A stretch of DNA of 40,129 bases, taken from assembly GCA_022925895.1 (NCBI GenBank), contig JAKSYS010000587.1, forward strand, positions 1 through 40,129, in the 5' to 3' direction. The notes under the pieces were generated by a model. It was not told the DNA's origin. It saw only the letters and a program-made list of their open reading frames with translations, and ran no database searches. Positions 1 to 40,129 of this stretch are shown here, in pieces. The DNA is from Fragilaria crotonensis (Eukaryota > Bacillariophyta > Fragilariophyceae > Fragilariales > Fragilariaceae). The position numbers and the translations under genes were made by a program. How positions within the stretch are numbered: the stretch's first letter is position 1; every line of letters starts with the position of its first letter.

Positions 1-3000
1 AGTGGCCGTGGACTTGCTCCCATCGATACTTCCTCGGCGCCAACCCTTTCCCTCCCACAGGAGTGCATCACGTCCATGTTTGCGAAGGAAGGCATCTTCG
101 CGTTGCAGATCGACTTGCACTAGGTGTCCAGCCATCCGATTAAGCGTCGAAATAGGGTGCGACAGCTTGCTCGCGTCCCCCTCAAACGAATCGACCGCGT
201 CGAGAACCGGTCCAATCAGCGTTCTGACCGCTAGCTGTCCAGCTGCGAACCCACCATCCATGTGAGCGGCGCCCAAGAGTGACTCGACGACATCTGGCAA
301 CATTTTAGGAGGATCGCTCCCCCAAAGAGCTCTACCTCCCTCGTTAATTGACCACTCGTAGTATTCCAGCCTCGACGGTATGGTCTCATCGCGGTGATTG
401 ATGAATTTGTGCAAACCGGTCTTGAAGCACTGATATCCAAGAACTTCGTTCGACACTAGCGCAGCATCCACTGTAGCCATGTCACCAACCGTTAGCGTTG
501 GGAAGGTTCGGAAAATCCAATCGCGAACGGCGATGCAGAGGACGGCGTCCCCAATCCACTCAAGTTTCTGGTATGATGGAACTGCCTCGTGAACAGCGCT
601 CGGGTGCGTGAAGGCCTCCTCAACTAAGAGGGGACAACTGAATTGTCCTCTGCCAGTCGCCATTCTCGCAGCATCATAGGCGTCCGCCCTGGGAACAGAG
701 ATTGGTCGAACAAACTCATCCAAGTTGATTCCTGAACCTATAGGTAAGAGAACACCGCATTCCCGACCGACCGATGTGGCAGCTTCGAACCCGAAATGAA
801 TGAAAATCAATCCAAGTATGGATTCGATCACATCGGCGCACACTTTCATGCTTGGTCCGGACTCTGCACACCTCGTAAGTTGCGAATCGACACCCCTGAC
901 GTAGGATTCTAATTGGCGAGGTACCCACTCCCCCCGAGCTAGAGGAGTGGTCAATACGTACTGCTGGAATCCAACACGCCGGCACGCAGCAGCCAAGTAT
1001 TCGTTGTTACCCATGGCTGATCGGAGTATCGAAAGGTCACCTTCATGCAAATGCTTCACCCAACACCCGAGCGCTGGTGTGCGAAGCAATGCATCGCTTT
1101 GAAGCAATTTAAGGACACCGTCACCAAGCCATTCATACTGCTCGTAGTCGACTTCGAGATTTGCTGATTTTGCAGTCAGCGCGACAGAGACCTCGGCCCA
1201 CGGTAACTTCTCAACACAAGCCCCAAGAACAGGAAAATTCAATAAACAGCATCGAAGAAATGAATCTACTAACAGTTGTCGTTCCAGAGTATACAAAAGC
1301 TGTGGAAGCACTATTGAGAGCAGCGAAAGCGTCGGGTCGGCCAATCTGGCTTCTCGAAGGATCACTTGAGGGAGAAGAACAGTTGCGAGACCTGTACACA
1401 TCTCTAGACCATCTACAAGTCCATCTGGTAAAGTGAAATCCTTCTCCAAAAGAGGAAACGAATCACAAGGATCGGGGGTGCAACTTCGAAACGCAGAGGG
1501 TTGGTACCAAAGTCGCTGCGCGACAAACAGCGTATCGTTGCTTGGCACGTCATAATTGTGCGCAGCCTTGTAGTGTTCTTGGAATGTGCTCGCTCCACCT
1601 GTGCTCTTGGCGGGAAACGGTGCCGAGCAGTCAAGCGAGGTTGGACCAAGAATAATGTAAGTCGAGAAAGCTTGGATCGTCGGATTGCACAGGCGCGGAG
1701 TTGGTAGCTGCTCGTTGTACAAGCGACAAGCGCTTTCTCGTTCGCCAGACGAACGGTTGCTGTCATCGACGATCGTTTGCATTCCCTTCCAGTCAAGCTC
1801 ATCCTCAGTCGTCAGAAGACCGATCGATACAGGAGCGATGACATCTCGTCGTATTTCTCGTCCCTGAAATCGCTGTCCACGTGTCTTTTTCCGCCACCTT
1901 GAGGCCATCAAGATGGAGAAAAAGCTGGCTGCGACTTCCCACTGCAGCTCGTCAAGAGTAGTGGCAATCTCGTCTCCAAGTTCACATTCAACGCGTCCAA
2001 GCTGCCGATGATGATGCGTCATGCAATCTACTTCTACTGAAATCCTCTCGGACGAAATGAGGACCAAACTTCTTGAATCACCTTTGAGGATATGGTTAAC
2101 TTTCGTGATGGTGTCGCCAGTCTGAATGATGGGATAAAGAAAGACAGATATTCTCCCAGTCGCAAAGTGAGACTTGACGCTCGCCGCGTTTGGAGAGATT
2201 GTATCAGTCTGCGCCTTCCCAACTCGTAGAAGCTCCAGCGTTAAATCCAGCTTGCCGAGGGGGAGTAATCGCTGGTTTAGAAGCTTCAGCTTGTGAAGGC
2301 GGACACATGCCATCAATGCCATGACTTGGTGCTTCTTCGCTTTCTTCAACTCTCGGTACTTGTGCGGGACAGTTACGACTCTGACACCCAGAGGCAGGTG
2401 CGCTGGGAGTATAAGCTCATCCTCACCAAACTTGGGCATGTGAAGGAGGAACGAATCCTTTGTGGCTCTCACCATGGACTCGATAGGGATTTTCAGGACG
2501 TATCTGTTTAGGAGCGATTTGGCCGACTTGAGGTCTACAGTCCCATGCTCAGCGCGGTATTCACCCACTTCCACGGCGCGTTGTTCATCCGACAACGAAT
2601 GGATTGATTTTGGTGAAGCAAAATGCATCGGAATTGGGATGTTGAACTTCTTTTCATCTTCTTGCTGCTTGATGAAGGTCTCAACACGTTGCTGTGACAG
2701 CTGAAGGTTGCACAGAGATTCTGATGTCGAAGTTTCTTGGGAGAACAGAAAGAACTTTGCGTCCTTCTGACGGGCTCGGCCTTTCATCTGGATGTATGCT
2801 TTGACGCTGTTGGCAGAGTCGAACACCGCCACGAAAGAGCAGGCTTGAACATCGACTCCCTCCTCGACTATAGATGTCGCGACTAACACGTTTATGTCTT
2901 TCTTTCGCAACGAACTAAGCGTGCCTCTGATTTGCATCACCTGGTGGAGCCATTCCTTTTCGGGATCATAATCAGCCGCGCTTCCGTCACCGAGCACAAT

Positions 3001-5235
3001 GTGATTAGACGCATTGAGATACTTGAATATTTGCGTCGCCCGGCGTACGAGTACACCGCACCGAATAGAGTTATATGGAGCAGGACGTAGAAGCTCATGT
3101 GCGTGCATCAAATGCGACACTTCTTCCTCGACAGCATCGCAAAACTGATCTTCGAGGAAGCACAACGCGGTTGAACGCGACTCTTTTTCTTCAACAGCAT
3201 TGCAGAATCGATCTAGGATGTTAGACACCTTGTCTTTGCGCAAGTCATTTCCTTCTACTGCATCGCAGAACTGACCAGGTATGAAAGGCACCTTGCTTTC
3301 TAGAAACTCTGCTTTTTCAGCCGCATCACAGAACTGACCTGGAATGAAAGTAATCTTGGTTGGAGGCAACTCTTCTTCTACAGCATCGCAGAGTTGGTCT
3401 GGAACGCAAGACGCCGTCGCCGTTTCCAGCACTCTTGTGCACTCGGCGCCACATAACTCATCTTGAATGCAACGCATCTTATGGGCAGGCCGCAGATGTT
3501 CTGACTCAAACGCGAACACACCAAACGATTCATCGGCATCAGCAAATTGATCGCCATTATCATTACCTGTCGTGAGTGTAAGTTTTGTCAATGTCGCGAG
3601 AGAATTCGGGCTCACATCTTCGTATGGGGCGTGAAAGAACGGCGCCGGCGATGATTGTTGTGAACATGCGTCGAGATCGCAAGCATCGGACCCTCCGTTG
3701 AACTCGACATGCGGATTTTCATCTGGTGGATTTGACACCTCTGAAGTGGACGCGTCTGCTTCATCAAATTGATTGGGAATCGGCAGTTCGACAGTTTCGT
3801 GAGGGTTTAGGTTACCGACCTTCTGGGTCCCAAAATCCTTATCCGGATCATCTTTTCGACAAAAGTAATTGTGCAATGCCATTGCGGTTACCCGACGCTG
3901 GACAAAGACCAATCCAACTGAGTCATCTCGGCTCTCGAGCTGTTCCTTGAGAAGCGCTTCCAGTTTCAGGAGCTTGTCGGACCGACCCCCAAGTCGTCCT
4001 TTCCGTTTCGTTTGTTTCTGACAGAAACTAACAACGGCTTGAAGATAATTGAGCAAGAAATGGAATTGTTGGTCGGTCTCCTTCTCGTATATATTGCAGG
4101 ATATCTCTTTGATTACAGTTTGCACGTACAAGGACACAGCAAACGGACCTAGGTCTTGATAAAGGACGATAAGTTGCATCAATTCACGAGGTCGGCATTT
4201 ATGAATGTCAAGACTGTCGTGCGAAGGAAAGTCGCGCGGAGCTTCTATAACAGGCTCAAAGAAGACTTGGCTTTCCATTGCGACAGAAGCGCCATCGCTG
4301 ACTGTCCCGTTCCACGTCGCCAATTTCGAATCCAGTGTCCGTTCAAGGGAAGTCAGCATTTGAGAAAGCTGGTCATCGGAATGAGTGTGCTTGACATTCG
4401 TCAGTGGCGATGCTGTCAAGCCCAGAATGTGGGGTCTCTGATCCTGGGGAAGAGTGTGGTACCATTTGTCCATAATGATTTTGTATTGATGATTTCCAAC
4501 GGCATAGTGACATTCATCGAGGACTACCAAATTAAAGTTTCGGAAGGAAAACAAATCTCCGTAATGCATCAACAAATCGTACATGGCACCATGAGTCGCA
4601 ACCAAAATGTTGGCACGTCGAAGCAGAAGCCGAGACTGGTGTGCGACATTCCAACAGGCCATGGCGACGGAATACGGTAAGTTGGCACGTAGTGCAGTCG
4701 ATTGCTGCACGGCGAGGGCGACGCTAGGTACCAAGAAAAGCGTTTGCTTCGGTAGATCCACATCGCCTGGAGGCGCCGCAAAATGACGGATGCACAAGAG
4801 TGCAATCAAAGTCTTACCCTTACCGGTACCTAGGTGAATGATGGTATTACGAGTCTTTGCGATTTCCAACAAAGCAGTCTGATAATCACGTGGAGATCCA
4901 CGAACAATTGTATCTTTAAGGTCTTGCAGAGCCGCTGATCGAGACCTTTCCTTTTTGTCACTGGAATGAGATTGAATATCTTGGAGGTATGCCTTATAAA
5001 CATCGACGCCACCTGCTTCTAATTCGCACAGTATACGGTCCATATTTTCGTAGATTGAAGCGCAGGTTGCAGTAACTTCAGCTTCAGTTACCGGATCGGC
5101 GAGAAAAAACCTGCGATAGGATTCATCACTGATGCGGGGGAGGATTCTGGGGAGAGGGCATCTTGCCCGACTGCGCATCCTCGCACTCGTGGTATAACTT
5201 ACGTTCTTCCGGAACACCAGCATCCAATTTCTCAT
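1..5235 (-). CDS. DCR: Dicer (helicase-DUF283-PAZ-RNase IIIa-RNase IIIb), C-terminus cut by the window edge
   Basis: Cuts long double-stranded RNA into small RNAs. The minus frame is open without a stop from 5235 to base 1 (1745 codons, no intron); the first in-frame stop upstream is at 5248-5250. Start taken at the ATG at 5235; the next ATG is at 5223. Seen in order: Walker A GTGKGKT (about residue 136), DECH box (240), LTAS motif III (272), motif IV near 440, motif V (ATSIVEEG, about 780), motif VI QMKGRAR (816-822), Dicer-dimerisation/DUF283 (about 885-992, LLNRY and KLHKLKLLNQRLLP-like), a PAZ-like stretch near 1215, then two RNase III domains. IIIa has YEWLGDGVL (E1368, D1372) with ADVIESILG; IIIb has LEWIGDAVL (E1559, D1563) with DVVESLLGA, so both acidic sets look intact. 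Motifs IV and V are about 340 residues apart because of a large insert. A dsRNA-binding domain may lie beyond the edge. Confidence 0.95.
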   Translation of the reverse strand, partial: MRNWMLVFRKNVSYTTSARMRSRARCPLPRILPRISDESYRRFFLADPVTEAEVTATCASIYENMDRILCELEAGGVDVYKAYLQDIQSHSSDKKERSRSAALQDLKDTIVRGSPRDYQTALLEIAKTRNTIIHLGTGKGKTLIALLCIRHFAAPPGDVDLPKQTLFLVPSVALAVQQSTALRANLPYSVAMACWNVAHQSRLLLRRANILVATHGAMYDLLMHYGDLFSFRNFNLVVLDECHYAVGNHQYKIIMDKWYHTLPQDQRPHILGLTASPLTNVKHTHSDDQLSQMLTSLERTLDSKLATWNGTVSDGASVAMESQVFFEPVIEAPRDFPSHDSLDIHKCRPRELMQLIVLYQDLGPFAVSLYVQTVIKEISCNIYEKETDQQFHFLLNYLQAVVSFCQKQTKRKGRLGGRSDKLLKLEALLKEQLESRDDSVGLVFVQRRVTAMALHNYFCRKDDPDKDFGTQKVGNLNPHETVELPIPNQFDEADASTSEVSNPPDENPHVEFNGGSDACDLDACSQQSSPAPFFHAPYEDVSPNSLATLTKLTLTTGNDNGDQFADADESFGVFAFESEHLRPAHKMRCIQDELCGAECTRVLETATASCVPDQLCDAVEEELPPTKITFIPGQFCDAAEKAEFLESKVPFIPGQFCDAVEGNDLRKDKVSNILDRFCNAVEEKESRSTALCFLEDQFCDAVEEEVSHLMHAHELLRPAPYNSIRCGVLVRRATQIFKYLNASNHIVLGDGSAADYDPEKEWLHQVMQIRGTLSSLRKKDINVLVATSIVEEGVDVQACSFVAVFDSANSVKAYIQMKGRARQKDAKFFLFSQETSTSESLCNLQLSQQRVETFIKQQEDEKKFNIPIPMHFASPKSIHSLSDEQRAVEVGEYRAEHGTVDLKSAKSLLNRYVLKIPIESMVRATKDSFLLHMPKFGEDELILPAHLPLGVRVVTVPHKYRELKKAKKHQVMALMACVRLHKLKLLNQRLLPLGKLDLTLELLRVGKAQTDTISPNAASVKSHFATGRISVFLYPIIQTGDTITKVNHILKGDSRSLVLISSERISVEVDCMTHHHRQLGRVECELGDEIATTLDELQWEVAASFFSILMASRWRKKTRGQRFQGREIRRDVIAPVSIGLLTTEDELDWKGMQTIVDDSNRSSGERESACRLYNEQLPTPRLCNPTIQAFSTYIILGPTSLDCSAPFPAKSTGGASTFQEHYKAAHNYDVPSNDTLFVAQRLWYQPSAFRSCTPDPCDSFPLLEKDFTLPDGLVDGLEMCTGLATVLLPQVILREARLADPTLSLLSIVLPQLLYTLERQLLVDSFLRCCLLNFPVLGACVEKLPWAEVSVALTAKSANLEVDYEQYEWLGDGVLKLLQSDALLRTPALGCWVKHLHEGDLSILRSAMGNNEYLAAACRRVGFQQYVLTTPLARGEWVPRQLESYVRGVDSQLTRCAESGPSMKVCADVIESILGLIFIHFGFEAATSVGRECGVLLPIGSGINLDEFVRPISVPRADAYDAARMATGRGQFSCPLLVEEAFTHPSAVHEAVPSYQKLEWIGDAVLCIAVRDWIFRTFPTLTVGDMATVDAALVSNEVLGYQCFKTGLHKFINHRDETIPSRLEYYEWSINEGGRALWGSDPPKMLPDVVESLLGAAHMDGGFAAGQLAVRTLIGPVLDAVDSFEGDASKLSHPISTLNRMAGHLVQVDLQREDAFLRKHGRDALLWEGKGWRRGSIDGSKSTAT
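3103..3480 (-). repeat. Six tandem 21-residue (63-bp) coding repeats inside Dicer helicase lobe 2
   Basis: Six units in the Dicer reading frame at a spacing of 63, 60, 63, 63 and 63 bp (alanine codons at 3445, 3382, 3322, 3259, 3196, 3133). The shared core is F-x-P-x-Q-F-C-D-A-V-E-E; the middle units are the most alike (FIPGQFCDA twice) and the outer ones are weaker (DELCGAE, DQFCDAV). Each has one cysteine at the same place. They occupy about residues 586-711, between helicase motifs IV and V. Degenerate look-alikes (DQFADADE near 3540, NQFDEADA near 3765) lie upstream in the same acidic insert. Function is unknown. Confidence 0.9.
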
Positions 5236-5923
5236 CCATAGTCCGAATCATCTTACGACGATCCCTTGTAGTCGTCGTAGGATCGAACGAGCTCGTTTAC
5301 TGACAATGTGGTAATAATATTCATTTTGGGTTGATCGGTTCGCTCAAGGACTCGCGCAGTGTTCGAGCGTCGAATGCAGGGAGAGGCTTTGTAGTTGTCT
5401 CAGGAGAAGGGTCGTCGTCCTACGTCCTTGGTACCAGGTGTATGGTCTTATTGAACGTCGATGGCCGCACTATGGTTGTCAAAGTGAAGTATGATATGCC
5501 CGAAGCCCGCCTTCACGTGTACTGTACTCGCATGAACACTCGACACTCGCATAAGACAGGAATTGTACAAAGTTCTGGAGTACAGTATAATATGAATACC
5601 AGTATTGGAGCTCATTGACGTCGCATTGCTGACATCATACTGTACCTGGTATCAGAAGCATCGGCCCGAAGACTATGATACATGATACGACACATTACCA
5701 ACTGGATTGAGATTGGACCATCAACATATAGGCATACCATTTGAAGCATTCGAGTAGTGAAGACTACCTCAAATGAATATGGTACCACCCGCTACCGACC
5801 TCCGACATGATCCCTATCATGTGAAATATATGCTAAGATTTTACATGCTGTTAAGTAAGGCAACTTTGCATCTGCGGGTGATACGTCAAACCCTGCTGCT
5901 GCAGCGGTTGACGGCGACCAAAG
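5236..5923. other. Intergenic: Dicer 5' flank and 3' flank of the next minus-strand gene
   Basis: No supported gene. It holds the presumed Dicer promoter. Visible items are a perfect 12-bp palindrome AACGAGCTCGTT at 5286-5297 and GTAC/TATA-rich short words at about 5570-5660. The plus-strand ORF of 95 codons here resembles nothing I know. Confidence 0.5.
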
Positions 5924-8126: not shown

Positions 8127-10696
8127 ATGGCGACGACGGTCGCACTTCCAGCTCCCTTATCAGAGCCTTACGCCTCGATAGTTCAAGACGTCCAGCAGGA
8201 GAGTACTGCTGCCACTCAGTACGATTGCCTAGAGATTCAGCTACGTTCGTTGTTGCTGCAAAGCTGTGAAGCCCTTCAACTCCATCACGATCTCGGAGAT
8301 GGTAGAGGACGAGACATAAATTCTCTTCAAGATACGTTTCGAAGCCTGTATTCAAGTTTGCTGCCAACTTAAAATTGATGGGATCGCCCGACTCGGACTT
8401 GTTCTGCTGGAAGATATTGTTGAGAGTTTGCCTCTCGATCAACTGCAGCTATTCTATACCCAAACTCAGCCCTTTCACCACGTCTCTCGACTTTGGTCAG
8501 ATGCTCTCGGCAGTCACAGTGGATCCCACAGTCTACAATTTATTCGCGTATGTAACGCATTAATACGGAGACTTCCCCCGAAATCAGAATGGACTGGTCG
8601 GATATTGCTTGACCTCGCACAAGGCCTGCCCCTAACTGACAAGTCCTGTTGGAAACCCTGGGGTAGTGTCTCACCGGGACAAGTCGACTTTGACTCCTCG
8701 CAGGACTATGAAGGAGATGATTATACTTTCTACCAAAATTTTTGGTCGCTGCAACAGGATTTCGCGAATCCATTTCACATGTCGTTTGGGACATTTTGTG
8801 CCAAATACACCAAGGTTTTGACAGAATTGGAAGCATACGCGTCGACAAAGGACAACATCCTACGGTTGTTGACTCTCCATCCCTACAATTCCTCACTCAC
8901 TCTCGGATCTTGACGGCACAACTGGAATCCAGCATGACCCTCAAGCTGCACCTATTGACACAGTTTTCCATTGTCGAGGCATTTCTGTCCAGCACCCAAT
9001 TGCCCAACATACAGGCTGCCCTCGGTACGCTGTCGAAGCGATCATGGCAGTTGTTGGAAAACCTTAATCCCAATCATGCCGCGTTACTGCAAAATCTCCT
9101 GCAATCCAGCGAAGTCATGTGGCGAGACTGGAAGAAGAACAAATGCCAACCTGCTGCCATGCAATTACCGGCGCCCGCGCTGGAGAAAAAGTTGGGTACT
9201 ACCTTGGCATCGACCACCATTACAAGACTCAAAACCGAACATCCGCAACAAGACTTCTCTGAATTGGAATTTTTAGCTCCGGTAACAATGGCCGAATTGG
9301 TTACTATATCGTCGTCGATGCGGTTGGTAGTTCCGTCGATACAATGTCATTTGGAAGAATACGTTGAAGCCCTCGACCCAGAAGCTGGAATTGATGAAGA
9401 GTATTCACCGAAACGTGACAAAGTGTTAGGGTGGCAGGCGTTACGACTTTTCAGCGTCCAACATTTGGCCTACTTTGATCAAATTCGGCCCAATGGCGAC
9501 TTTGAGAACTTGGTGCGAAAGGTCTATCAGGAAGAGTACGGCGTGTTGATTCCGGGAGATTATTTGGAGCATGTGATTCAACCAGAAATTGATGATGAGA
9601 ACGAGATTCAAGCGGATTGCGCACCTACAGCTGAGGACGTTGCCGAGACGGTGGAGGTGGATGGACCAGACACGAAGGGAGATGATGAGGTGGACAATAG
9701 TGAGCTAAATAAGATCGAAGTCGAGGATGAGAAGGAATCACCGGACAGCGTGGAAACGTCCGATGACGGCGAAAATGCGCAACCTCAGGACAACATGGTC
9801 CTGGATGGCAACGCTGCGGAACTGCAAGTTGACGATGGCGTAGAACATGTAAGTGACGTAAAGATGGCTGACGAGGTCACTGCCGTGGAAACGGATATCG
9901 TTGAGGAAGAAAACAAGCCTGAGGTTGTCGACGCAGCCGTTACGAAGGTTGAGTTAGAAAAAGATGGCAACGAACCTGCGCCTGTTGCTGTTGCACATTC
10001 ACCTGCCGAACCCGATAAACCGAATGAGCCGGTCGCCGCCATTGCAGGAGCTCCCGTTGAAAAGGAGACGAAGGTCGCCGCGAAAGGGAAGGAAAAGCCT
10101 TCCGTTTCAACAGAGGGCGCCACTGGAAAGGGATCGAAGGTTTCTGGCAGAGATACCAAAACTGCGCCCCAGTCCGATCAAGATGAAGCCTCTCTTCGAC
10201 GTAAGATGGAAGCCGAGGCTCGAGAACGTTTGATTGACCAACGCAAGCGAAAGCGCGGCGGTGACGCACATCCAGGCGATCGTCGGACCCAACCACCAGC
10301 TCGAGATGCGCGTGATCCCCCACGGGGTGCTGGTGCACGAAGTGGTGATGCACGCCGTGGCCCACCGGAAGTCGGAATCCAAAGAAATGGACCAGGGGGG
10401 CGTGGCGGAGGAAGTGGTGGACCTATTGCCACGGGTCGAGGTGGTCCACGAGGACCCCCGCCTCCCCATGGTGGGAGAGGTGGCCCCGCGATGCCGCCCT
10501 CACACCAGCAAGGTGGAAGGGGCCACCACACGCTGATCGCGGAAGTCAACCTCCAGGACGAGGTGGTTGGGATGATCGACGCGGGGGTCCGGACCGAAGA
10601 GGAAATGACGCGAGTCAGCGCGACGACCGACGAGGTGGTCAGCCAGACGATGCTCGACGTGGTAGGGGGAATCGAGACAACAACCAACGGCGATAG
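8127..10696 (+). CDS. THOC1: THO complex subunit 1 (THOC1/HPR1), frame broken three times
   Basis: Core subunit of nuclear THO/TREX, which couples transcription to mRNA export. Start ATG 8127 has a strong context (CGACCATGG). THOC1-like blocks seen: LLEDIVESLPLDQL, RVCNALIRRL, FYQNFWSLQQDFANP, FLTHSRILTAQLES, and GWQALRLFSVQHLAYF. These lie in three frames: frame changes occur at about 8336-8343 (one extra base, or two missing), at AAA 8847-8849 (one missing base restores TKGQHPTVVDSP), and at GGGG 10519-10522 (one missing base restores an RGG tail ending at TAG 10694-10696). Repaired length is 856 residues. If the last break is real, the ORF instead continues to 10919. After the THO core come an acidic segment (about 485-615) and an Arg/Gly-rich tail (about 705-856) where animal THOC1 has a death domain. 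GT-AG introns do not explain the breaks well. Confidence 0.88.
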
Positions 10697-11089
10697 TCGT
10701 ACACACTCCTTATTATATAAGCCGCGCCACAACAATAGTACGAGGAAAATTACCTTTCAATTGCTAAAGCCGATGCTAAACTTATACAAGTCGTCATCCT
10801 CGTCTGGACAATCGGCTGTACCTACTCACGGCGTTGATGATCTTTGCAACGTGAATACTATGGTGAATGAAGCTCCTTCGTCAGCGAACGAAATGGTGCT
10901 TGCTCCATCACGAGATTAGACTCTTGACCCTCAAGCGCATTGTGTAGATACCAAGTTCAGTGAGTAGGGATTTATGATTCCAACGTTCAGTTCGTGGATA
11001 TCAAGGGTCAGAAACGTCGTCCTATAAACTCAAGCTAATGGCGTCGGCTCTTGGGACCCGATGGTAAAGAACTGGCACCGCAGACAGGT
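10697..11089. other. Convergent intergenic gap
   Basis: 3' flanks of THOC1 and the methyltransferase gene. The unrepaired THOC1 frame runs on to 10919 here, but loses the Arg/Gly pattern and looks non-coding. Nothing else is supported. Confidence 0.5.
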
Positions 11090-28446: not shown

Positions 28447-31245
28447 CTAATCGTCGTTGGCCTCCACGTATCCTTGCAACTTTGCAACCTCTTCGTCCGC
28501 GAAGTTATTGTCACTAATGTCAGCCGAAACGTCGGCGGCATCGCGCCAGAAGAAATGGTAGACACAATAAGTTCCAAAAATCATGAGCCCAATGGGAATG
28601 AGACCAAAGTACCACATTCCCACGATTCTTGCCCCTTGAGCAATGGTGCAATGATCAGTGCGATGATGCTCATGAGTTTGATTAGGATGTTAAGGGAAGG
28701 ACCCGACGTATCCTTGAAAGGATCACCGACCGTGTCGCCGACAATACAAGCCTTGTGAGTTTCAGTTCCCTGGTAATGATTGGCACAAAAAAAGTTGTGG
28801 GTGAGAAAGTTGAATCCGTGCGAGCGTTGTGGTCCAATTTCTCGCTCACCTTTCCGCCAGCAGCACCCTCAATTTCAATGTACTTCTTGGCGTTATCCCA
28901 AGCTCCTCCAGCGTTTGCCATCATGATGGCAAGCATCATACCCGATGCAATCGAGCCAGCAAGAAGACCGGTCAAGCATTTAGGCCCAATCAAGAACCCA
29001 ACGGCAAGAGGCGAGAGAATGGCGTACAGACCAGGGAGAATCATCTCTTCGACAGCAGATTGAGTGGAGATCGCAACGCATTTATCCGAGTCGGCCTCAG
29101 CAGTTCCTTCTCGCAGACCAGGAATCTCAGAGAACTGGCGACGAACCTCAATAATGATAGCACCAGCAGCCTAATCATGAGGGCAGGCAAGCGAAAACAG
29201 TGAGGAATTGCGGAACTCGATCGATGCACATCGACAGGCAGATTTGGCGCACCTTTTGAACAGAAAGCATGGTCAACGCCGCAAACAAAAACGGAAGCAT
29301 AGCCCCGAGAAGAGCTCCGCTCAACACGATTGGGTCACTGATATCCACAACATCAATCTCTGCGTTTTCCTTAAAGGCAGTGAGCAAAGAAATAGCCGTC
29401 AGAACAGCAGAGCCGATAGCGAATCCTTTCCCAGTTGCAGCGGTGGTGTTTCCAAGCGCGTCAAGAGCATCCGTGGTTTCACGGACCCGTTCGTCGAGCT
29501 CTGCCATTTCCGCGATACCTCCAGCGTTATCAGCAACAGGCCCGTAGGCGTCAGTAGCCAGTGTAACACCGAGAGTGGAAAGCATACCGACTGCAGAAAC
29601 AGCGATTCCGTAGTCACCGTACAGGGCGTTGCATCCCAAGATAGTCGAGACGAGGATAAGTACAGGGAAAACTGTGGAAATCATACCGATGCCAAGACCT
29701 TGAATGATGACGGTTGCGGGTCCAGTAATACCCGCATCTGTAATGGACTTGACTGGATAGTATGCATAGGAAGTAAAGAACTCAGTGACTTGGCCAATCA
29801 GTACACCGGCACAAAGTCCAATGACGATACATGCGAAAATCTCCCATCTGCGACGACGACATTGACCACAGCGTTAGAAACGAGGAAAAGAAATTGTCAG
29901 CAGTGACGACCGGTGTGTAATACTCTACTCACCCGTCCGTGGAGCGCCCTGGGAAGAGAGCCCAGCAGAACACCGCAGTAAAGGCGATAACAAACAGTGA
30001 CGAGACAATCGTTCCCTTATGCAAGGCGAACATGAGATCTTTTTGTGTGGCATTATTTTTTGTCCCAACCGCGAAATAGCCAAGAATGGAAGCAATAATA
30101 CCTCCTCCAGAAACCCACAATGGAAGCATGACAAGGGCAACATCTCCTTTGGCAAGCGTGATAGAAGCGATGATCGCTCCGACGTAAGATTCGAACAAGT
30201 CAGCACCCATGCCAGCAACATCTCCAACGTTATCTCCGACGTTGTCAGCAATGACAGCGGGGTTGCGTGGATCGTCTTCGGGGATATCCATCTCAATCTG
30301 AAGGAGGGCACTTGTTAGTTTGCAATGCGCATTGCGCCGATATTGACATCGTAGTAGTGTTCGGCGACCTTACCTTGCCAACCAAATCTGCACCCACGTC
30401 TGCTGCTTTGGTGAATATGCCACCAGCGACACGGGCAAAGAGAGCAATGGAGGATGCACCAAATCCGAATCCAGCAAGCGAGTCAGCTGCAATTCTAAGC
30501 CTCACTTCATCGACCTCGGGGTATCCAAGGGAGACGACCCAGTACATGAAGGAGAGGCCCACAAGGGCCAAGCCTACGACAGTAAATCCCATGACAGCAC
30601 CTCCAGTAAATGCGACGCGGAGAGCGGCAGCCAGGCCTTGCTTGTCTGCAGCTTGCGTTGTGCGGACGTTTGCATCCGTAGCAACTGACATTCCGCACCA
30701 ACCGGCAGAAGCCGAGAGGAACGCACCGGCGACGAAGCAACTACCATAGCGAATACCGTCAGTACGCGACCCAGTTGGAGGGTCTAGGGTATAGAGGAGT
30801 ACCAGGATACTGAAAACGACAACCACATACATGGCCAAATACTTGTATTCCGTGATCAAGAATGCGCGAGCACCAGATTTGATCTGATCCGATATCTTGT
30901 TCATCTTGTCGTTACCGCGAGGTGCCTTATTCAACTACCACAACAGTATGGAGTATCAAGGACAACGAGTAAAGGAGTAGTATCGGACAGCACATCAGTG
31001 AGTTCAAACTTAAAACCGCTCAATGCTGCGTGTCTTTTAGCAACGTTGCGACGCACGATACAAGAGTGAGCAATAAACGAAGACCATTCAACTCAAAAAC
31101 GCACCTTGAACATAAGGTAGAACACCATGAGCAACCCAAAGAATCCGGCACCCAAGCTGAAGGTGACCGCAACAATCGGACTTGTATTGCATGGGAACCC
31201 CGCCTCGGCCGATGCTATAAAGCAACTACTCATTGAGTCGGTCAT
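28447..31245 (-). CDS. VHP1: Vacuolar-type H+-translocating pyrophosphatase, K+-dependent type, six exons
   Basis: Membrane pump using pyrophosphate to acidify the vacuole. Exons (high to low): 31245-31105, 30934-30374, 30297-29933, 29847-29253, 29170-28850, 28769-28447. All five introns are GT-AG (170, 76, 85, 82, 80 nt) and phases agree. Motifs: DVGADLVGK at the end of exon 2, [19 protein letters not shown] in exon 3, [12 protein letters not shown] and [10 protein letters not shown] (488-497) in exon 4, [12 protein letters not shown] in exon 5, [15 protein letters not shown] in exon 6. Ala in GNTTAA (not Lys) indicates the K+-stimulated class. In exon 6, CCCC 28632-28635 lacks one base: restoring it gives [12 protein letters not shown] and a final helix plus an acidic tail to TAG 28447; otherwise the frame stops early. 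Length 768 residues. Start MTDSM chosen; ATG 31305 is possible. Confidence 0.95.
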
Positions 31246-34200
31246 GTTTTGCCGATAACAAAACCTGGAACTATGACTACGGGTAGGATCTGACTTGACA
31301 ATCAAGCGTTTTTGGTTGCTGAAGGCAATCTTTTTTCAGGGCTTCTGAGGTGTCACGATTTCATGATGCTCAACCAAGAACATGAAAATTTCCAGTCATT
31401 TCGAGCAGAGGATGACCACAGCGTGGATGCATACTACTAGCTAGTAGTATAGAAGTTGTGTCGAACCCACTCTTGAGTATGCGAAACGTATAACACATAC
31501 TGTACTACATAATGGATACACCCTCTCAAACGGTATTTATTAATTTAGCTGTCTTCGCTTTAGATGGTAACCGTCAGTTGCCGGACCTTCTGGGCTCGTC
31601 ATCTCGACATTGCTACACTGATAGTAGTCAATACAGTACGCAGTAGACAATAGCTTGAGCCCCATCGGTAGGAATTTGCAGAAATCAACTTGTCCCATAG
31701 TGGTGGCACAAGTTCCTAATCAATGCAAGGAGACTGATTGTTTCAAAACAATTCGACTAACTTTGATGTTTACAACTTCCTTCAGAGTTGTTTGTGACTC
31801 TATATGTTGTAGGGCCGCTGTAGGTGTATTTCGATGAATACTAGGAGCAATTTCCTGATGTAGCAGAATCAAAATCTTGAAAGCATTTGCTCTCAATGAG
31901 AGGATCATGTCAATGACAAGGTAGGCATGTTGTCCTAAAATTGGCAGCCAAGTATCCAAAAGTGGAAGACCCAAGCCGGTCATGAGAATTGACAATGCTG
32001 TCAACTTGATCAGTGGCTGGTTCACCTGAAGTTGCTGGCTGTGAAAGTATGCCATGTTGGCTATGAGTTGTGGTTCTGAGTTCAATCTAGTAGAGTATTG
32101 CTGATCTCCAATGTTTTGCATGCAGGAGCTCGGACTGATGAATTGTCTCCGTCAAGCTATCAGGGTATGTAACCTCAACAGCATGCCAGCAACATCTAAA
32201 CATGAACCTAAACTGTGAACGGCATGAAGCTATCGTGTGAAAAAGAGGAGGAGTGAAAAGTGGGCATGAGTTAGAATGGTAGTAACAGTGGTTTCTGTAC
32301 AAAGAAATAGCAACAACAGGAGGAACATCTCTCAGTTCCATTGATAGCACCAACCACCAGCAATGAACAAACCTGCCTGGTCAAGAATCAAAGGTCAGCA
32401 CCGCCATCCTCACGTCAAGAAGGAAGGAATCCACAAGGAGGTCTCCGCAGCAGGCTTGGAGCTCCAGACATGTAAAGTTAGAGTTCAACTATCTTTGTTT
32501 TTGCCACATGATGGTATTCAAGAAAGCCATTGCACTGGCATCCAAGAACCCGCCCATTACAGGATGAGCCAGTTGGTTGACTTTGATTATTGAGAGATTG
32601 AATCTGAAGGACAGTTTGATTGGCACAAGCAAACCACCCTTACTGAAATCCCAGATCTATTTGATGTTCTGCAACTGTGCTCATGATTAGGAGGACTTGA
32701 CCTGCCACAGCACGGTAGCACGATACTATCCTCTAGTCGATAGCATCATACTGTAGGTTCATGAATCCAAAGGGTCTTGTTGATTTTCTGCAGGACTTGA
32801 ACCAACAGCCTCACCCAAAAGGTTACCTCTGCTTGAGATTTTAGCCAACTATTCTATACATCAATCCCCAAGGAAACCCAAACTTGTGGGAGCACTCTAT
32901 AAAGAGCGGCAGCAACCACGGAGAGTTATGGTGCACAGATCCCAGCAGCCAAGAATCAAAGGCCACAAGCATAGATTCTGGATGTCCCTGGGGTTCTTGT
33001 TGCAAATGTTGTAATAGTCATCCGACTGCTGCGCAGGTAGGGTGTCCATGAAAATGTTAGTGTGTGTTTTCCCCAGGATCCCGTCCCAAAACTGTCTCTT
33101 GTAGAGATTTGGTGAATAAATACCCTTAATTTTGCAGCATTGTTTGGAGTTGCCTCACTTTGATGTTTGAAGCTTACGCACCATCATTGAGGTCCAACTG
33201 ACAACCTTGCTTCTCTTGACTTTCATTTTATGGCACTCTAGTTGTTCCTGCTGCTTTTCAACATTGGATGTTGGGTACTGGCTAGTAGTACTTGTTTACT
33301 CCTAGTAGTAGTATGACCTCAGATGAAATGGAATACTTTGTGTTATAATTGTGCTAACTCAACTATTTACCAGGCCACCTGTGCCAAACAAAATTGGCCT
33401 GCAATTTTGACTTTTAATGTCAGGGTGTACGGTAAAGGAATTGAAAGCCCATGTTCTCAGGTTACCGAGATCATCGGCACCAATATACTCCTCTTCAACG
33501 ATATAACACTTAATGCGTGCAAATGTCCTCTTCAATTTCAACTCGTCTTCCGTTGTGCTTTTCAAGAAATATACATGCAATCGTGTGGCAATCAACCGCT
33601 AGAAGCAGCTCCAGCCATCCTTGCTCAGACGGATACGATAGCATTTTGCAGTCACGACATGGAAACTCTTGGAAAGTTCTAGCGACAATGATTTAGCCCT
33701 AGATTCACTACAAAGGGTTGTGATTAGGGTGGCAGCTTCCCTGACAATCGCAAGTCCGGATTTTTTAAGACAAGAATCTATTATGGTGATGACCGCTTCA
33801 GTGTAGCGGATGTACTACATGCCTGTTCGCTCCTTAGTACCTCTAACGCCTATCATCTTCCCAAAATGGTCGTTCTCTTCTCAATGATCATGATAAACCC
33901 TTTGGGTTGATATCGGGGTTAATACCTTTCTTCCACATACCACACAATGATACACTGTTTTCCATGGATGTTGCTCGCTGTTGGTAAAGCAAGAACTCAA
34001 CTCGGGCGATGGCCGTGTGGGAAATAGAAATGGCAGTCCACTGGTGTCGCAAGATGATGGTACCTTAGCGAGTGAGAGGGAATGGTACCCGTCCTACAAA
34101 TTTTCTGTAGGTTTGAGGGCGATCATGGTGCTAAGGGACTAGCTAGGCATGTGCTATGAAGCCCAGTTCAAGTTGCATGGTTATTTGGCGTCGTGACGCC

Positions 34201-36083
34201 GGTGAGAGAGGACACTGATCTCATCGTTATGGAGACTCTTTTTACAAGGGAAGAAACTATTCGGGCAACATACAGAGAATAGTATGCAACAATGTGCTGT
34301 GTGATGAGCAGCGTCGGGAAAAGGCATTTAAATGAGCAACCATGCATGCAAGCATGGAGGCATTCCTTATATGTCTCAATTGATGACTTGATGATCATGC
34401 CAAGGTGCTGACTGTGGCGTGGGTAAATGTTTATTTGGATGGGTTGAATGTGCTCCTCATGACTGCATTCAAACTTAATGTGAGGTGATATTGTACTACT
34501 ACTACTATGTTGCTGATGTGCAAGCTGTTGTTGTGACTGAGCTCAATGAGGACTGCGAGGGTCTTGCGTGCAGTGGTTCCTAAATATGCTGATGGGTGCA
34601 GGGCTGAGAGAGGTAGTACCGAAAGAGATGTTGCGGGAAAAGGTGTAGCGATAGAACAAAGGTTGCACACACAAATGAAATCCATGACACCAAGCGTGAA
34701 CCTCACAAATCAATGTCGTATCAACCTCCAAATATGGTTGCACCTATCAGCAAAGGTACTCCCTCAAACAAATACAGGGCAACAAGAGATAAACAGCAGT
34801 CAAAAGAACCCACAGTACTGACATAATGACTCAACACTCGGTATCTTGACACAAATATAAGCCGTTCCTGACAACAACATTGCTCAAACCACTCAATAAA
34901 GATTCCAGGACATGTTGAGAGCAATATCTGCCAACAACATTGTGACATAGAAATACACCAGGTGAAATTATACAATGTAAGAATTCAATAAAGTCAAATT
35001 GAACAAAGTTAACCAAGGATTCAATGGCCTGGACAATCACACCCTGTCAGAAATGATGTTCTGCAAACTAAAAATATGATAAAATGTTCTCAAAGTCATG
35101 AAGGGGCAGCATATTCACAAGAATTCATAGCCATCTTCGCTCGCAGGAGAAGCATATTCAACGCTTGGGCAGTCCATATTAGTGCCCTATCTTCTCCATC
35201 AGTAACTGGTTTGACAGATGAGCAATCATGCTGAGCATCAGAGGAAACATCAGCAGATGGATAATTCAGAGACAAACAACAAAACCACCAAGAATTAACT
35301 TTATCAATTGAATTGAGAAAACGGAATATCAGGGAACTTTACCGCAAACAGGGAGGTCAAATGCAGTATATCAACAGCAGACTCCAATCCCGTCAAGAAC
35401 CAACAAAACGCCCATCATGACCGGGATCCAAGTGCATCTCAAAAGTGAACATGATGGTGCATCAAACAGATATCACCCTGACAAACATAACTATAATTGC
35501 TCGATGCTTAGCGAGGAGGATGGGCATCACAAAATCCTCTGTATAATTTCAGAGCTCTCCAGGCTGCATTCATAATGGAACCACGACCTTCATTGATGAC
35601 AATAAAAAAGACGGTGCCTCTAATCATATTCAGAATTCAAAAGGATTAGTTATCTCCTAAATCATGTCTAGTATAAGCTAGTATCTGACATGCGCATAGG
35701 ACCTTCGGGCAGACGTTAATGCTATGGTAACACAACCAATTGAAATCAGTCTTGCATTGAGAGACAAAAACTAGCGTGATGGAGTGGTCAAATAAACATA
35801 CAGGACTCTGGACGCCGCAGTGTGTGACACAGTTCCGGAGAAACAGTTACTGATCCAACAGGCATGGGCAGATGGAAGGGTCAGAGTATCATGGGGAAAA
35901 CAATTCCATTTTTCATCATCACTGCAATTCAAGTATGCACCGATTTGATCTGCATATACATCATCAATCCAGAGTGTATTCAGCAGAGAATAAGAATTAC
36001 TTTGTTAAGGACAAAAATGTCTCACCTCCTCATTGCAGAAAACTCATGATCAAAGACATCACCATATTGGCTGATAGAGGCAC
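31246..36083. other. Gene-poor, AT-richer region without supported genes
   Basis: Includes the presumed V-PPase promoter at its left end. The longest open frames are 133 codons (31720-32121, minus) and 119 codons (33323-33682, plus); neither shows a domain I recognise. Sequence is AT-richer than the left part with many stops in all frames. It may be decayed mobile DNA. Small GTAC/TAGTAG islands occur near 31431, 32720-32755, 33285-33315 and 34495. Confidence 0.5.
31431..31450. repeat. Perfect 20-bp palindrome
   Basis: ATACTACTAGCTAGTAGTAT reads identically on both strands and could form a cruciform or bind a dimer. It lies about 185 bp upstream of the V-PPase start codon, so it may be a promoter element, but its words also match the intergenic islands found elsewhere. 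Confidence 0.85.
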
Positions 36084-36521
36084 TTGATAAAAGGGCGCAT
36101 CCTACTCATGCTTGATGTACATGATCTTCAACAAACTGATCTTGCCTCTTCCACCAATACTGCATCCACCATACAACAAATTGATCACATGCTAGCTAGT
36201 GGAACTAGGATGCGTGAACATACTCGTCCCCGTACTCACCAAAAGTCAATCACTCTCATATCTGGAAGGTCCACGATGCGACCGTTACTTTGCAGATTCA
36301 AGTACGTTGTACTACCTGGTACTACTTTGAACAACAGCTAGATGACAACTGTTGATCCCGTTGAACACATGGTAGAGCAGGTCAAGAACTCCACCTTTGC
36401 TCTCCCTCATTGCAACACTACTCTCTCCACTTACCATGACGAATCATCTAAATACCTGCAACAATGCCAGATTACTCCCTGGACTTCCGACTATGCAGCA
36501 ACGGCACTGACCTTCTTGTAA
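36084..36521 (+). pseudogene. Broken ORF, probable upstream part of a decayed retroelement
   Basis: One plus frame runs 36084-36521 with a single TAG at 36339-36341. Before the stop is a basic stretch (MREHTRPRTHQKS); after it a 59-codon piece (MTTVDPVEHMVEQ ... LQQCQITPWTSDYA). It precedes the reverse-transcriptase-like fragment on the same strand. No domain is certain; assignment to a retroelement rests on position and on a loose resemblance to basic linkers before reverse transcriptase domains. Confidence 0.35.
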
Positions 36522-37307
36522 CTGACAAGATAACAGGGCCACAAAAAACAATCAGATTCAGAATCAAAAAATGTCAGTTCAACAATCAGATGAGCAGAGC
36601 AACGCCAATGTCTGTAGGGAGTATCAGAAACATTGTCAAACGGTCTTCAAACAGTGGACCAAAAAACTGATGAAATAGTGGTACTGCATCGAAACAACCA
36701 AACAGAGCTTCAATGATTGTTATGGAGTTTGGCACACACTCCTGATTGCAAGGATATCCTTTGGGGTTTAGTTCTTGAGAAGCAAGCGTTATTGAGACAA
36801 CTTTTTGAAAGACAATAGCCACTCTATTTGAGCAGCAGCTGCATCTATGCGGGCACAGCAAAATCTTTCTGGGTTCCACATTCATCACCGTATCAGGAGA
36901 GCCATTGGCTTGCTTCTCACAGGAAACATACCGCATCATCTACTCCTGGCTGGTATATGAAGAAATAGCTATGATTAGAAATTTTGACATCCATGCAAGA
37001 TCTTAGGAGGCATACTAAAGACCGACATACTAAATGAGGACGATCATGTCCGTAATAGATTGAACAAGAAATGAAAGAAATCGCATCCACCACCCACTGA
37101 GGAAGCCATTGTGTAAGATGCCACGCATATGTCATGTCAGACGCAATTTATGCACATCATTTCAATACAAAGTTGTGGTTTGTTGGATCTCTGCTTACTG
37201 TGCAAAACTGTCAATTTTTTCAGAAAAATCCACAAGTTTTACGCCCTTCAGCACTCTGTTCCTGAAGCTGATATGGTGCTCAAGACATTTTCAGAAGGAC
37301 ACTCTCT

Positions 37308-37563
37308 TTGAATCTCATAAATCCAATGCAGGGCAATATTCCAAGGCTCAAAGCCGCCATCAATCCAATAATGCAGACACAACTCACGACAGATCTGGTG
37401 TGCGGTCTTTTGCTGAAGCCCGACATGGAGCATTTTGACAATGATGTCACTGCCTGCTATGATACAGTAATTGCTGCCCTGCTGTATGGCTTGCACTGAT
37501 GGTGGTACTCATGAAGAACATGTTGGACCATTATACACATGAAACAATAACGGTCTCGTAGCC
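37308..37563 (+). pseudogene. Decayed reverse-transcriptase fragment
   Basis: The frame at 37308-37499 contains MEHFDNDVTACYDTVIAALL, which fits motif A of non-LTR-type reverse transcriptases (FxxDxxxCYDxI, with the catalytic Asp pattern). It is preceded by QTQLTTDLVCGLLLKPD in the expected place. A frame change near 37485-37500 leads to LALMVVLMKNMLDHYTHETITVS, matching the helix that usually follows. Then stops accumulate. No YxDD motif or flanking endonuclease can be seen, so this is an inactive remnant. Confidence 0.55.
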
Positions 37564-39636
37564 TGCTGACTCTCTCACAAAACATTTGTGTCTCATTGAT
37601 GCCGTACTAGTCAATGATTCATCAGGGTACATGGTCTTGCAATTCTTGATGCTGTAAACAATGATAACCAGAATTACCAACATTGTGCAAACATGGAGAA
37701 ATCTCTCTATTTCTTTCCGGTGGAGCATTCTTGAAGTTGAAAAATGCTCCTTGTACATGATGCTTTGCGACTGGAAATAGCAACGCCCCCCTAGACTGAC
37801 TGTTTGGCCTGAGGACCCAAGTACTCTCAGGCCTCAGGCTCGCTCCACAAACTGAAGGAAACTTACAGACAAAGCCCGGTCCAATGCACTGCCGGCCGCA
37901 TTCTTAGCCTGCACTCCTCACCCGATAGAAATCTTTTTGGAACTGACAGTCCTCATCACAAACACTGATGGATTTGCGATTCGACTTACCAGTGCTCCAA
38001 CACTGACTTAGTACTCAGCATTACAACGTTTTTATCGGACCGTATACCCCCCGCTAAGTGAATGAGTTCCCTTCTCTTGCAATTAAAGAGAAACAAGGAG
38101 AAGAAAAATCTGCTCGGATCATAGTTGTCTATATTACGCAACTGCTGGATGACATTGACCAGATAAATTGGTGGACTGGTAATTCTCAACCTGCGCTCCC
38201 AAATTGTTGTATCAACCAAAAATACATGAGGAATTTCAAAAGCCATGTTTGGAGTGAAGTGGGCAAACTCATGATACTAAGCAAAATACTATAAAGTACT
38301 AAGCACAAGTTGGGGAGTAGATTGCTGAACCTCCCGCCCCTGGAAAATCCAGGCATCCTGAATTTGTAGTACTGCGTACCTAATCACAACATGCTTCAGT
38401 GTGGCGATTTCCCTTTGAACAATAAATTAAGCTTTCCCTGATGGATACAATCACAGTGAAAATCTACAGCTCCAATGATCAATGCACTATTAATCCAGCA
38501 GCTCTCTCACAACATAGTACCTAGCAACAACAAATTAACATAAACTGGAAGGACTGTTAGCTCCTCCAAATCAAAATATTATTCAACATGTCAGACACTG
38601 ACAGACTCCATAACAAGTGCAAAGATTGCATCTAAGGACAGCACAGCCTGAGTAAAAGATTCTGCTTAGTACACACCTCCTGGCCTGTCGACCATGCCAA
38701 GAGACGACATCAACCCCACAACAGCAAGAACTCTGCACACAATTTACCTACTAGGCCAATCTGTATTTGACAGCAGCATGTAGTGCCACATAATCAACTC
38801 CACCAGATTTGCCTTCAGCATCAGGAGCACATCCAATCTTTACCAATGTGGTATCGGTGACTCTTATTTGATTACCACCAAGTGGCAACTCATTAGGAAA
38901 ATGACATGCGTTTCACTCTTGTGGTTAACTGAGAATTGCACTTTATGGTAGTCTTTGGGAATATGCCGGCATGTTTGGGTGGAAATAAAGAATGGTACAA
39001 CACTGTAAAGAGTAAAGATACTACTAGGATAAAACAACAACAAAAGGTTTGCAATACAACATAATTCCATTTCCAATGCTTAAGGTACCCAACCATGCTC
39101 CTTCACACCACCCTCAACCCATCCAAGATGGCTAGGAGAAACACCACCCAACAAGGCATTACTGCCTCCTTTCCTGGACTACCTCCCAACACTCCCCATC
39201 ACTCCTGAAGTCCTTGTTTGCACTCTTACAAATAGAGAGCTGGTTCCCAAGGTTGGGTGCCGTGTGATTCCTTGGAAAGTTCCTACCAGAGGAACCAATA
39301 AAATTTGTTTTGTCCTTTTCTGGAACAAGGAAATCTATGCACCAGTCCAACAAAGTAAACCAGCAACGTCGCCAACCACAACAACAGGATTATGTTTTCT
39401 GTTAATGCAGGGGTGGTAATTTTATGCAATCTGGTCGGAGCGCCAACCAGCTTAAAAAAAGGTTGATTTAGGTGCTATCATGATATTATGATGTCAAATG
39501 TCAAAGCCTAAACTTGAGCCGGTGGGGTCAGGGCTGCACTCGGAGTAGTTGTTATCGTAATCGTAGTTATGTCTACTGTGTATGCATGCTCAAAGACTGC
39601 AAGTATGACATCCTGATTACAGCATTACAGCATCCT

Positions 39637-39674
39637 CATATGTCATATGTCATACTATACGTCATACGTCATAC
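39637..39674. repeat. Short heptamer repeat cluster
   Basis: CATATGT occurs twice in tandem (39637-39650), followed by CATACTATAC and two tandem GTCATAC units (39661-39674). A 7-bp period with small changes, suggesting slippage. Confidence 0.7.
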
Positions 39675-39872
39675 AGTTTTCGTTTGTTGAAGTCTAATAA
39701 AATCCAAGGACATGATGTCCTTAACGCTTAACGTATGCACGCGCCTTCCGAAAGCACATTTGATAGGTACCGTAGCGTTTGAAGGAATGGCCTTTGGCCT
39801 AACGAGCCAACGAGGGATCATCTCAGTATTGCTGTACGTAGTATGAATTACTTTGTGCCATGGGGTGTATTC

Positions 39873-39891
39873 TATGTCATACTATGACATA
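39873..39891. repeat. Inverted repeat, 8-bp arms with 3-bp loop
   Basis: TATGTCAT-ACT-ATGACATA. It uses the same GTCATA word as the heptamer cluster 200 bp upstream and is followed by CTACTAGTAG (a 10-bp palindrome, 39896-39905). Confidence 0.75.
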
Positions 39892-40129
39892 CTCTACTAC
39901 TAGTAGAGAGAGAGGTGTTCAGTGTTCACAATAGCGACCAAGCAAAAAATGACTGTGTTGGATGTCTCGACCAATTCGGAAATGCCTCGACATAGACGTA
40001 TTCGCATCAGTATATATTCAGTGTCGTAGTTAACCAGAATTACTGGTGATATTAAGTAACTCTTTTTTGGATATAACCCCTTTTAACCCTGCTCATCTAA
40101 ATGAATTCTTGAGAATAATTTAACGGTTT

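Follow-up and report, generated by a model that had tools for sequence, protein, structure and literature searches.

A tandem array of short conserved cores within the helicase of a Dicer from the diatom Fragilaria crotonensis

Introduction

What role might be played by a tandem array of cysteine-bearing repeats placed inside the helicase of a Dicer? This question is raised by contig C544 (JAKSYS010000587.1, assembly GCA_022925895.1) of the diatom Fragilaria crotonensis, the whole of which, 40,129 nucleotides in length, constitutes the window analyzed herein. On its minus strand, an unbroken open frame of 1749 residues (1..5247), which is cut by the contig end, is supported as a Dicer by its domain content. 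An initial annotation made from the sequence alone had described, between motifs IV and V of the helicase, six in-frame repeat units with the core QFCDAVEE at 3103-3480. Herein we report that the array is genuine, that its short core is kept at the protein level while the linkers drift, and that the gene would represent a known enzyme type with a new variation, namely a repeat insert with a plausible docking role.

Location and composition of the HEL2 insert

The location of the insert was borne out by both the motif strings and an alignment with the AncD1D2 construct. Motif IV was identified by string and alignment as FVQRR at residue 448 (3892..3906; this and all other coordinates of the Dicer gene are on the minus strand), and motifs V and VI fell within the Helicase_C match of the HEL2 lobe (PF00271, residues 776-825, 2773..2922, above the Pfam cut-off), which contains the strings VLVATS at residue 787 and QMKGRAR at residue 820. 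The distance from motif IV to motif V was 340 residues, as annotated, versus 59 residues in a stand-alone Dicer-type helicase of the same genome (C250) and 69 in AncD1D2 (counted by hand from the alignment), both of which are shorter than the approximately 100 residues that had been taken as usual. The insert in HEL2 is therefore about 270 residues in size.

With limits set by us at residues 463-735 (3043..3861), the insert was acidic, its combined share of Asp and Glu being 19-22% as compared with 11% in the remaining protein, and the number of Trp residues within it was zero. Its 273 codons contained no in-frame stop, whereas the two alternative frames held 8 and 21, and its codon scores (0.145 and 0.162, versus 0.08-0.12 in the remainder of the gene) showed that the insert DNA is coding-like in codon use. 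No best-scoring stretch of solved chains lay inside residues 465-735, either among the best 60 of 76 or among the best 60 of 62. A look-alike of motif IV at residues 727-745 (VLVRRATQIF) was considered as a second, duplicated motif and was rejected, as its best local score of 23 was attained by 855 of 5000 shuffles.

Units of the tandem array

The array occupies residues 593-718, in frame within 3094-3471, and comprises six units of about 21 residues, five of them clear and one weak. The Phe or Leu preceding the core Cys stands at residues 598, 619, 639, 660, 681, and 702, giving spacings of 21, 20, 21, 21, and 21, and the self-match of the insert at lag 21 reached 154, versus at most 53 at lags 20-22 when the insert was shuffled 5000 times. 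The tandem array was thus confirmed to be genuine. The pattern TGYRAYGCNGYNGAR matched five times in the window, each time within the array, with an expectation of 0.01.

The clear units are unit 1 (residues 615-634, 20 residues in length, 3346..3405, VPDQLCDAVE), unit 2 (residues 635-655, 3283..3345, IPGQFCDAAE), unit 3 (residues 656-676, 3220..3282, IPGQFCDAVE), unit 4 (residues 677-697, 3157..3219, ILDRFCNAVE), and unit 5 (residues 698-718, 3094..3156, LEDQFCDAVE). They scored 29.5-35.1 bits against the unit matrix, values that are circular in that the matrix was built from the same five. When the protein was shuffled 200 times, the 95% point of the null was 9.9 bits, and when the insert was shuffled 2000 times, it was 8.7 bits, the null maxima being 12.9 and 22.5 bits, respectively. 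The sixth unit of the initial annotation (residues 593-613, 3409..3471, CIQDELCGAEC) scored 5.6 bits, which is at the chance level, so that it is retained here as a weak unit for its 21-residue register alone. Older, decayed copies may possibly lie upstream of the array, although the candidates are suggestive only: NGDQFADADE (residues 564-573, 3529..3558) scored 11.0 bits, over both 95% points and under both maxima, and IPNQFDEADA (residues 490-499, 3751..3780) scored 8.1 bits, within the null. The other next-best match of the matrix in the Dicer was LPDGLVDGLE at residue 1273 (8.2 bits).

The core follows roughly the pattern [ILV]-x-x-[QR]-[FL]-C-[DN]-A-[VA]-E and alternates with spacers of about 11 residues; the string QFCDAVEE, to which all six units had been ascribed, occurs exactly in one of them. 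The residues C, A, and E are invariant across the five clear units. The core Cys is present in all six units including the weak one, and to this extent the description of one Cys per unit holds, but the 125-residue array contains 10 Cys in total (8.0%, versus 2.1% in the remaining protein).

Age of the array and selection on its core

The middle copies had been noted as the most alike, and units 2 and 3 indeed form the closest pair, being identical at 12/21 residues and 44/63 bases. Nevertheless, synonymous change per site (dS) in the closest pair was 0.82, with nonsynonymous change (dN) of 0.30, and over the 15 pairs of the six units dS ranged from 0.56 to 2.25, four pairs being saturated and not computable. 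Since silent change from unit to unit has come close to saturation, the array is old rather than young, and the earlier suggestion that it might be young or still changing in number was not supported.

The seven codons of the core (QFCDAVE), compared among the five clear units in all 10 pairings, showed 33.0 synonymous changes at 42.0 sites and 16.0 nonsynonymous changes at 168.0 sites, and the 10 linker codons over the same pairs showed 35.9 at 63.7 and 140.1 at 236.3, respectively. The three leading columns of the unit were excluded from both sets; when they were added to the core, the values became 48.5 synonymous at 65.3 sites and 40.5 nonsynonymous at 234.7 sites. When only adjacent units were compared (four pairs), the core gave 14.0 synonymous changes at 16.8 sites and 7.0 nonsynonymous at 67.2, and the linker gave 10.8 at 25.8 and 53.2 at 94.2, the ratio of nonsynonymous to synonymous change differing between core and linker with a Fisher p of 4e-5. 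Because the core had been chosen after the alignment was seen, the order of the 20 columns was also shuffled, and an equally conserved contiguous run of seven was obtained in 11 of 50000 orders. As the silent sites differ between cores, recent copying of DNA is not the source of their likeness, and the core is kept at the protein level while the linkers drift.

Distribution in the genome and comparison with control arrays

In the whole genome (62.11 Mb, 881 contigs), the degenerate pattern Q[FL]CDA[VA]E, which excludes unit 4, was found without mismatches four times, always in the Dicer array, and its reversed control was not found. The only other genome match of the array protein, on contig C701 (E 0.17), was rejected as a second carrier because the frame there shows no repeat. 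Searches with the Dicer or the array in IMG/VR and GTDB contigs, collections that are not eukaryotic, gave 3, 8, 53, and 7 pattern matches, none of which was confirmed.

In order to place the array among other repeats of the genome, control frames of at least 250 residues were taken from the window, from two loci fetched for other reasons, and from six regions spaced evenly by contig number, of which region L036 gave no such frame; of the resulting 35 frames, 33 remained after this Dicer and the C250 helicase were removed. Coding tandem arrays were flagged in four of the 33, two of which (L038) neighbour each other and may constitute one gene. Carrying a coding array is thus common rather than exceptional in this genome. 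In the Dicer array, change at the third codon position was 0.48, versus 0.38 at the first and 0.43 at the second. Because the third-position excess is strong in two of the four control arrays, the Dicer is not alone in having selected repeats; with the controls compared on change over the whole unit, what would distinguish its array is the restriction of conservation to a short core. The two adjacent frames of L038 (7146-9730, minus strand, contig C496) have repeats of 89 and 103 residues that are 77-83% identical, a younger coding array than that of the Dicer.

An enrichment of arrays among RNA interference (RNAi) proteins was also considered and was not demonstrated (3/8 loci versus 4/33 control frames, Fisher p = 0.12). 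The eight loci, chosen by ourselves, were two Dicers, the C250 helicase, an Argonaute, and four loci of RNA-dependent RNA polymerase (RdRP), and the arrays were those of this Dicer, of the second Dicer (C658), and of one RdRP. An RdRP frame on C34 (219 residues) and one frame on C199 (196 residues), both under the 250-residue limit, were checked separately and had no array. A Gly-rich frame of 209 residues near the Argonaute (lag 12) and a low-complexity frame of 912 residues near the C34 RdRP were flagged and left uncounted, as were the RNAi loci on C239, taken as a second haplotype, and a single RNase III on C437, which has no array.

Domain architecture of the Dicer and related loci

The identification of the gene as a Dicer, already made in the initial annotation, agreed with the presence in the frame of DEAD, Helicase_C, Dicer_dimer, and two RNase III stretches, all above Pfam cut-offs. 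The HEL1 lobe (DEAD, PF00270, residues 124-286, 4390..4878) contains GTGKGKT at residue 140, DECH at residue 244, and LTAS at residue 277, and together with HEL2 it forms a RIG-I-like DExD/H helicase with motifs I-VI. It is followed by Dicer_dimer (DUF283, PF03368, residues 909-999, 2251..2523, 35.5 bits versus a cut-off of 23.7) and by the RNase IIIa (793..1143, with acidic residues in YEQYEWLGD and CADVIES) and RNase IIIb (250..570, YQKLEWIGD and LPDVVES) domains. Both RNase III domains retain the E/D signatures of the acidic catalytic residues. No PAZ domain was among the Pfam matches of the frame at E up to 1, and a diverged PAZ may lie between residues 1003 and 1340; a C-terminal double-stranded RNA-binding domain (dsRBD) would fall past the contig end, where the gene is cut. 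The order of HEL1, HEL2, DUF283, and paired RNase III domains is the same as in the canonical Dicers of human and mouse, Drosophila Dicer-2 and Dcr-1, DCL1, DCL3, DCL4, and AncD1D2, and the 16 best solved relatives of the frame were Dicers or the AncD1D2 construct. A genome search with the Dicer at E 0.001 gave part of the C250 helicase as its sole other match.

This helicase (L016:3481-5427, plus strand) has no repeat insert, and its weak match to dsrm remains under the cut-off (E 0.0048). The second Dicer-type protein (L014:2431-7593, plus strand, C658), 1720 residues in length, combines two RNase III domains with a weak PAZ match that stays under the cut-off (E 0.00075) and carries, at its N terminus, 3.1 copies of a 94-residue tandem repeat; three of the copies hold a VLVDLSED-like stretch that resembles a SUMO-interacting motif. 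As far as their descriptions go, the Thalassiosira pseudonana proteins that these two resemble are a protein with PAZ and two RNase III domains for the latter and a DEAD-HELICc-dsrm protein (PMC3155517) for the former. The RdRP array is acidic and lies at the N terminus of a frame on C335 (L027:3-3059, plus strand), with 8.6 copies of a 102-base unit (Tandem Repeats Finder) and, by eye, about a dozen DDDSSGLFSKSxDE-like cores. Both C335 (L027, L028) and C239 (L029, L030) carry Piwi-domain frames and two RdRP loci within about 17 kb, and since their long matches are 98.6-99.5% identical, the two contigs seem to represent a single RNAi gene cluster in two haplotypes.

Elsewhere in the window, a THOC1-like gene with an RG/GG-rich C-terminal part lies at 8320-10919 on the plus strand as two overlapping frames, which are probably joined by an intron or a frame change. 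The G+C content of the window is 41-56% per kilobase; in 31000-40129 it is 41-46%, and neither a frame of at least 150 residues, nor a tRNA, nor an Rfam match at gathering score was found there. The genome also encodes silicic-acid transporters.

Possible functions of the array

To explain the array, we consider a multivalent docking loop on HEL2. As we infer from the sequence, an acidic and probably flexible insert of about 270 residues would leave HEL2 between motifs IV and V and display a short motif five times, or perhaps six, on spacers of about 11 residues. In this view each core, which might take the form of a short amphipathic helix, would fit into a pocket on another protein or on the Dicer, and the multiple copies would strengthen binding through avidity or bring in more than one partner. 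Linear motifs that are repeated for avidity typically show a short conserved core between drifting spacers, and within this one gene of one species the array has such a core and such freely drifting linkers. Docking, one of two roles proposed in the initial annotation, is favored here because the cores are conserved in the protein and not at silent sites while the linkers drift.

Several observations weigh against the docking loop. The contrast between core and linker comes from five clear units in one gene of one species, and its 10 pairs are not independent, its numbers are small, and the units share descent. The helix is a weak element of the proposal: although the helical moments of the cores (0.30-0.54) are above the protein median of 0.26, only two of the five exceed the 90% point of 0.46. 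A fold predicted with AlphaFold2 without an alignment had a mean predicted local distance difference test (pLDDT) score of 36.4 over the array, too poor to judge the fold, so that neither disorder nor helix can be read from it reliably. Coding tandem repeats are carried by four of the 33 sampled control frames, as mentioned above, and two of these four (L016, L039) exceed the Dicer array in third-position excess over the whole unit (0.75 and 0.58 versus 0.48). Because of the helix and control-array results, we lowered our estimate for the docking loop from slightly better than even to an even chance. A likeness to the ubiquitin-interacting motif was considered by eye and dropped, as the array lacks both the Ser of that motif and the acidic run ahead of it.

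Among the alternatives, the array could be a coding minisatellite that serves no function itself and that a surface loop tolerates, its cores being alike by common descent only. This would agree with the frequency of coding arrays in the sampled frames and with the linkers, in which synonymous and nonsynonymous changes are about equal (0.56 and 0.59 per site). Plain descent, however, predicts equal rates in core and linker, and the core protein sequence has been kept despite nearly saturated silent sites, which makes this explanation unlikely. Slightly less likely still is a folded, solenoid-like repeat domain in place of a flexible loop. The regular period of 20-21 residues, the helices drawn across the array by the low-confidence model, and the long, selected units of other arrays in the genome, which resemble folded repeats, speak for a solenoid, but the framework positions of known solenoids are not free to change and the linkers here vary freely; the low pLDDT and the lack of a best-scoring stretch of solved chains in the insert, within the sets given above, also argue against it.

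The metal/redox module of the initial annotation, in the form of a switch in which the invariant Cys residues of several units bind metal or form disulfides and thereby set the shape of the loop, found nothing in its favor beyond the invariant core Cys and the high Cys content. The core Cys residues are 20-21 residues apart, and no core contains a CxxC, the weak unit having a C-x3-C; each core offers one Cys in place of the closely spaced Cys/His ligands per unit of zinc and other metal repeats, and in the clear units A and E are conserved just as strictly as C. We therefore regard such a switch as quite improbable. Removal of part or all of the array by splicing is very improbable, for although the length of 3103-3480 is divisible by three, the frame is open throughout the insert with codon use as in the remaining gene, and the cores are conserved at the protein level.

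Relation to known Dicers and to RNAi in diatoms

Platforms with GW/WG "AGO-hook" motifs, such as GW182/TNRC6, are RNA-silencing proteins in which a short motif is repeated on a flexible chain. The Dicer array is not a member of this class, since its insert has no Trp that could stand beside Gly and sits inside a helicase lobe. Precedents for docking on the Dicer helicase come from Dicer cofactors. According to the available part of the report, the short hydrophobic C-terminal tail of Loqs-PD docks on HEL2i, HEL2, and the pincer of Drosophila Dicer-2 (PMC9279154), which sets a precedent for the docking of short motifs on this lobe, with the difference that the motif is carried there in trans by the partner, whereas in F. 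crotonensis it is carried, repeated, by the Dicer. Mammalian TARBP2 is likewise described, in the portion available, as binding HEL2i of Dicer (PMC10328071), and these two cases show that partners are known to bind the helicase. Among the literature matches listed, no Dicer with a tandem-repeat insert appeared in the titles and abstract beginnings, which is weak evidence, most subscription journals and preprints being outside their scope.

In the diatom literature, as far as the accessible sections of the papers go, canonical Dicers were not found in Phaeodactylum tricornutum and T. pseudonana (PMC3145265, PMC4156623). Their Dicer-like proteins have paired RNase III domains, as here (PMC3155517, PMC4247016, PMC3145265, PMC4156623), and by description are without the helicase-DUF283-RNase III fusion of this Dicer. 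The Dicer-like protein 242149 of Fragilariopsis cylindrus has DEADc/HELICASEc, a dsRBD, and two RNase III domains, and is described as starting with a DNA methyltransferase domain, which was not seen in the F. crotonensis Dicer (PMC4156623). In a further report, as partly available, Dicer (K11592) was recorded in F. cylindrus and an Antarctic Nitzschia and not in six non-polar diatoms (PMC13149256). Because, by these partial accounts, P. tricornutum and T. pseudonana are without a canonical Dicer and F. cylindrus and the polar Nitzschia have one, a helicase-DUF283-RNase III enzyme in a probably freshwater araphid diatom bears on the evolution of diatom RNAi.

It is also conceivable, although somewhat unlikely, that, through the repeated cores in its HEL2 loop, the Dicer assembles multiple molecules of an RNAi partner, for example a dsRBD protein, an Argonaute, or an RdRP, and would then possess a multivalent recruiting platform of its own, a role that in animals and plants is given to separate cofactors. 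If the cores do dock, the Dicer itself could serve as a scaffold, and the motif would provide a bait for the RNAi partners of diatoms.

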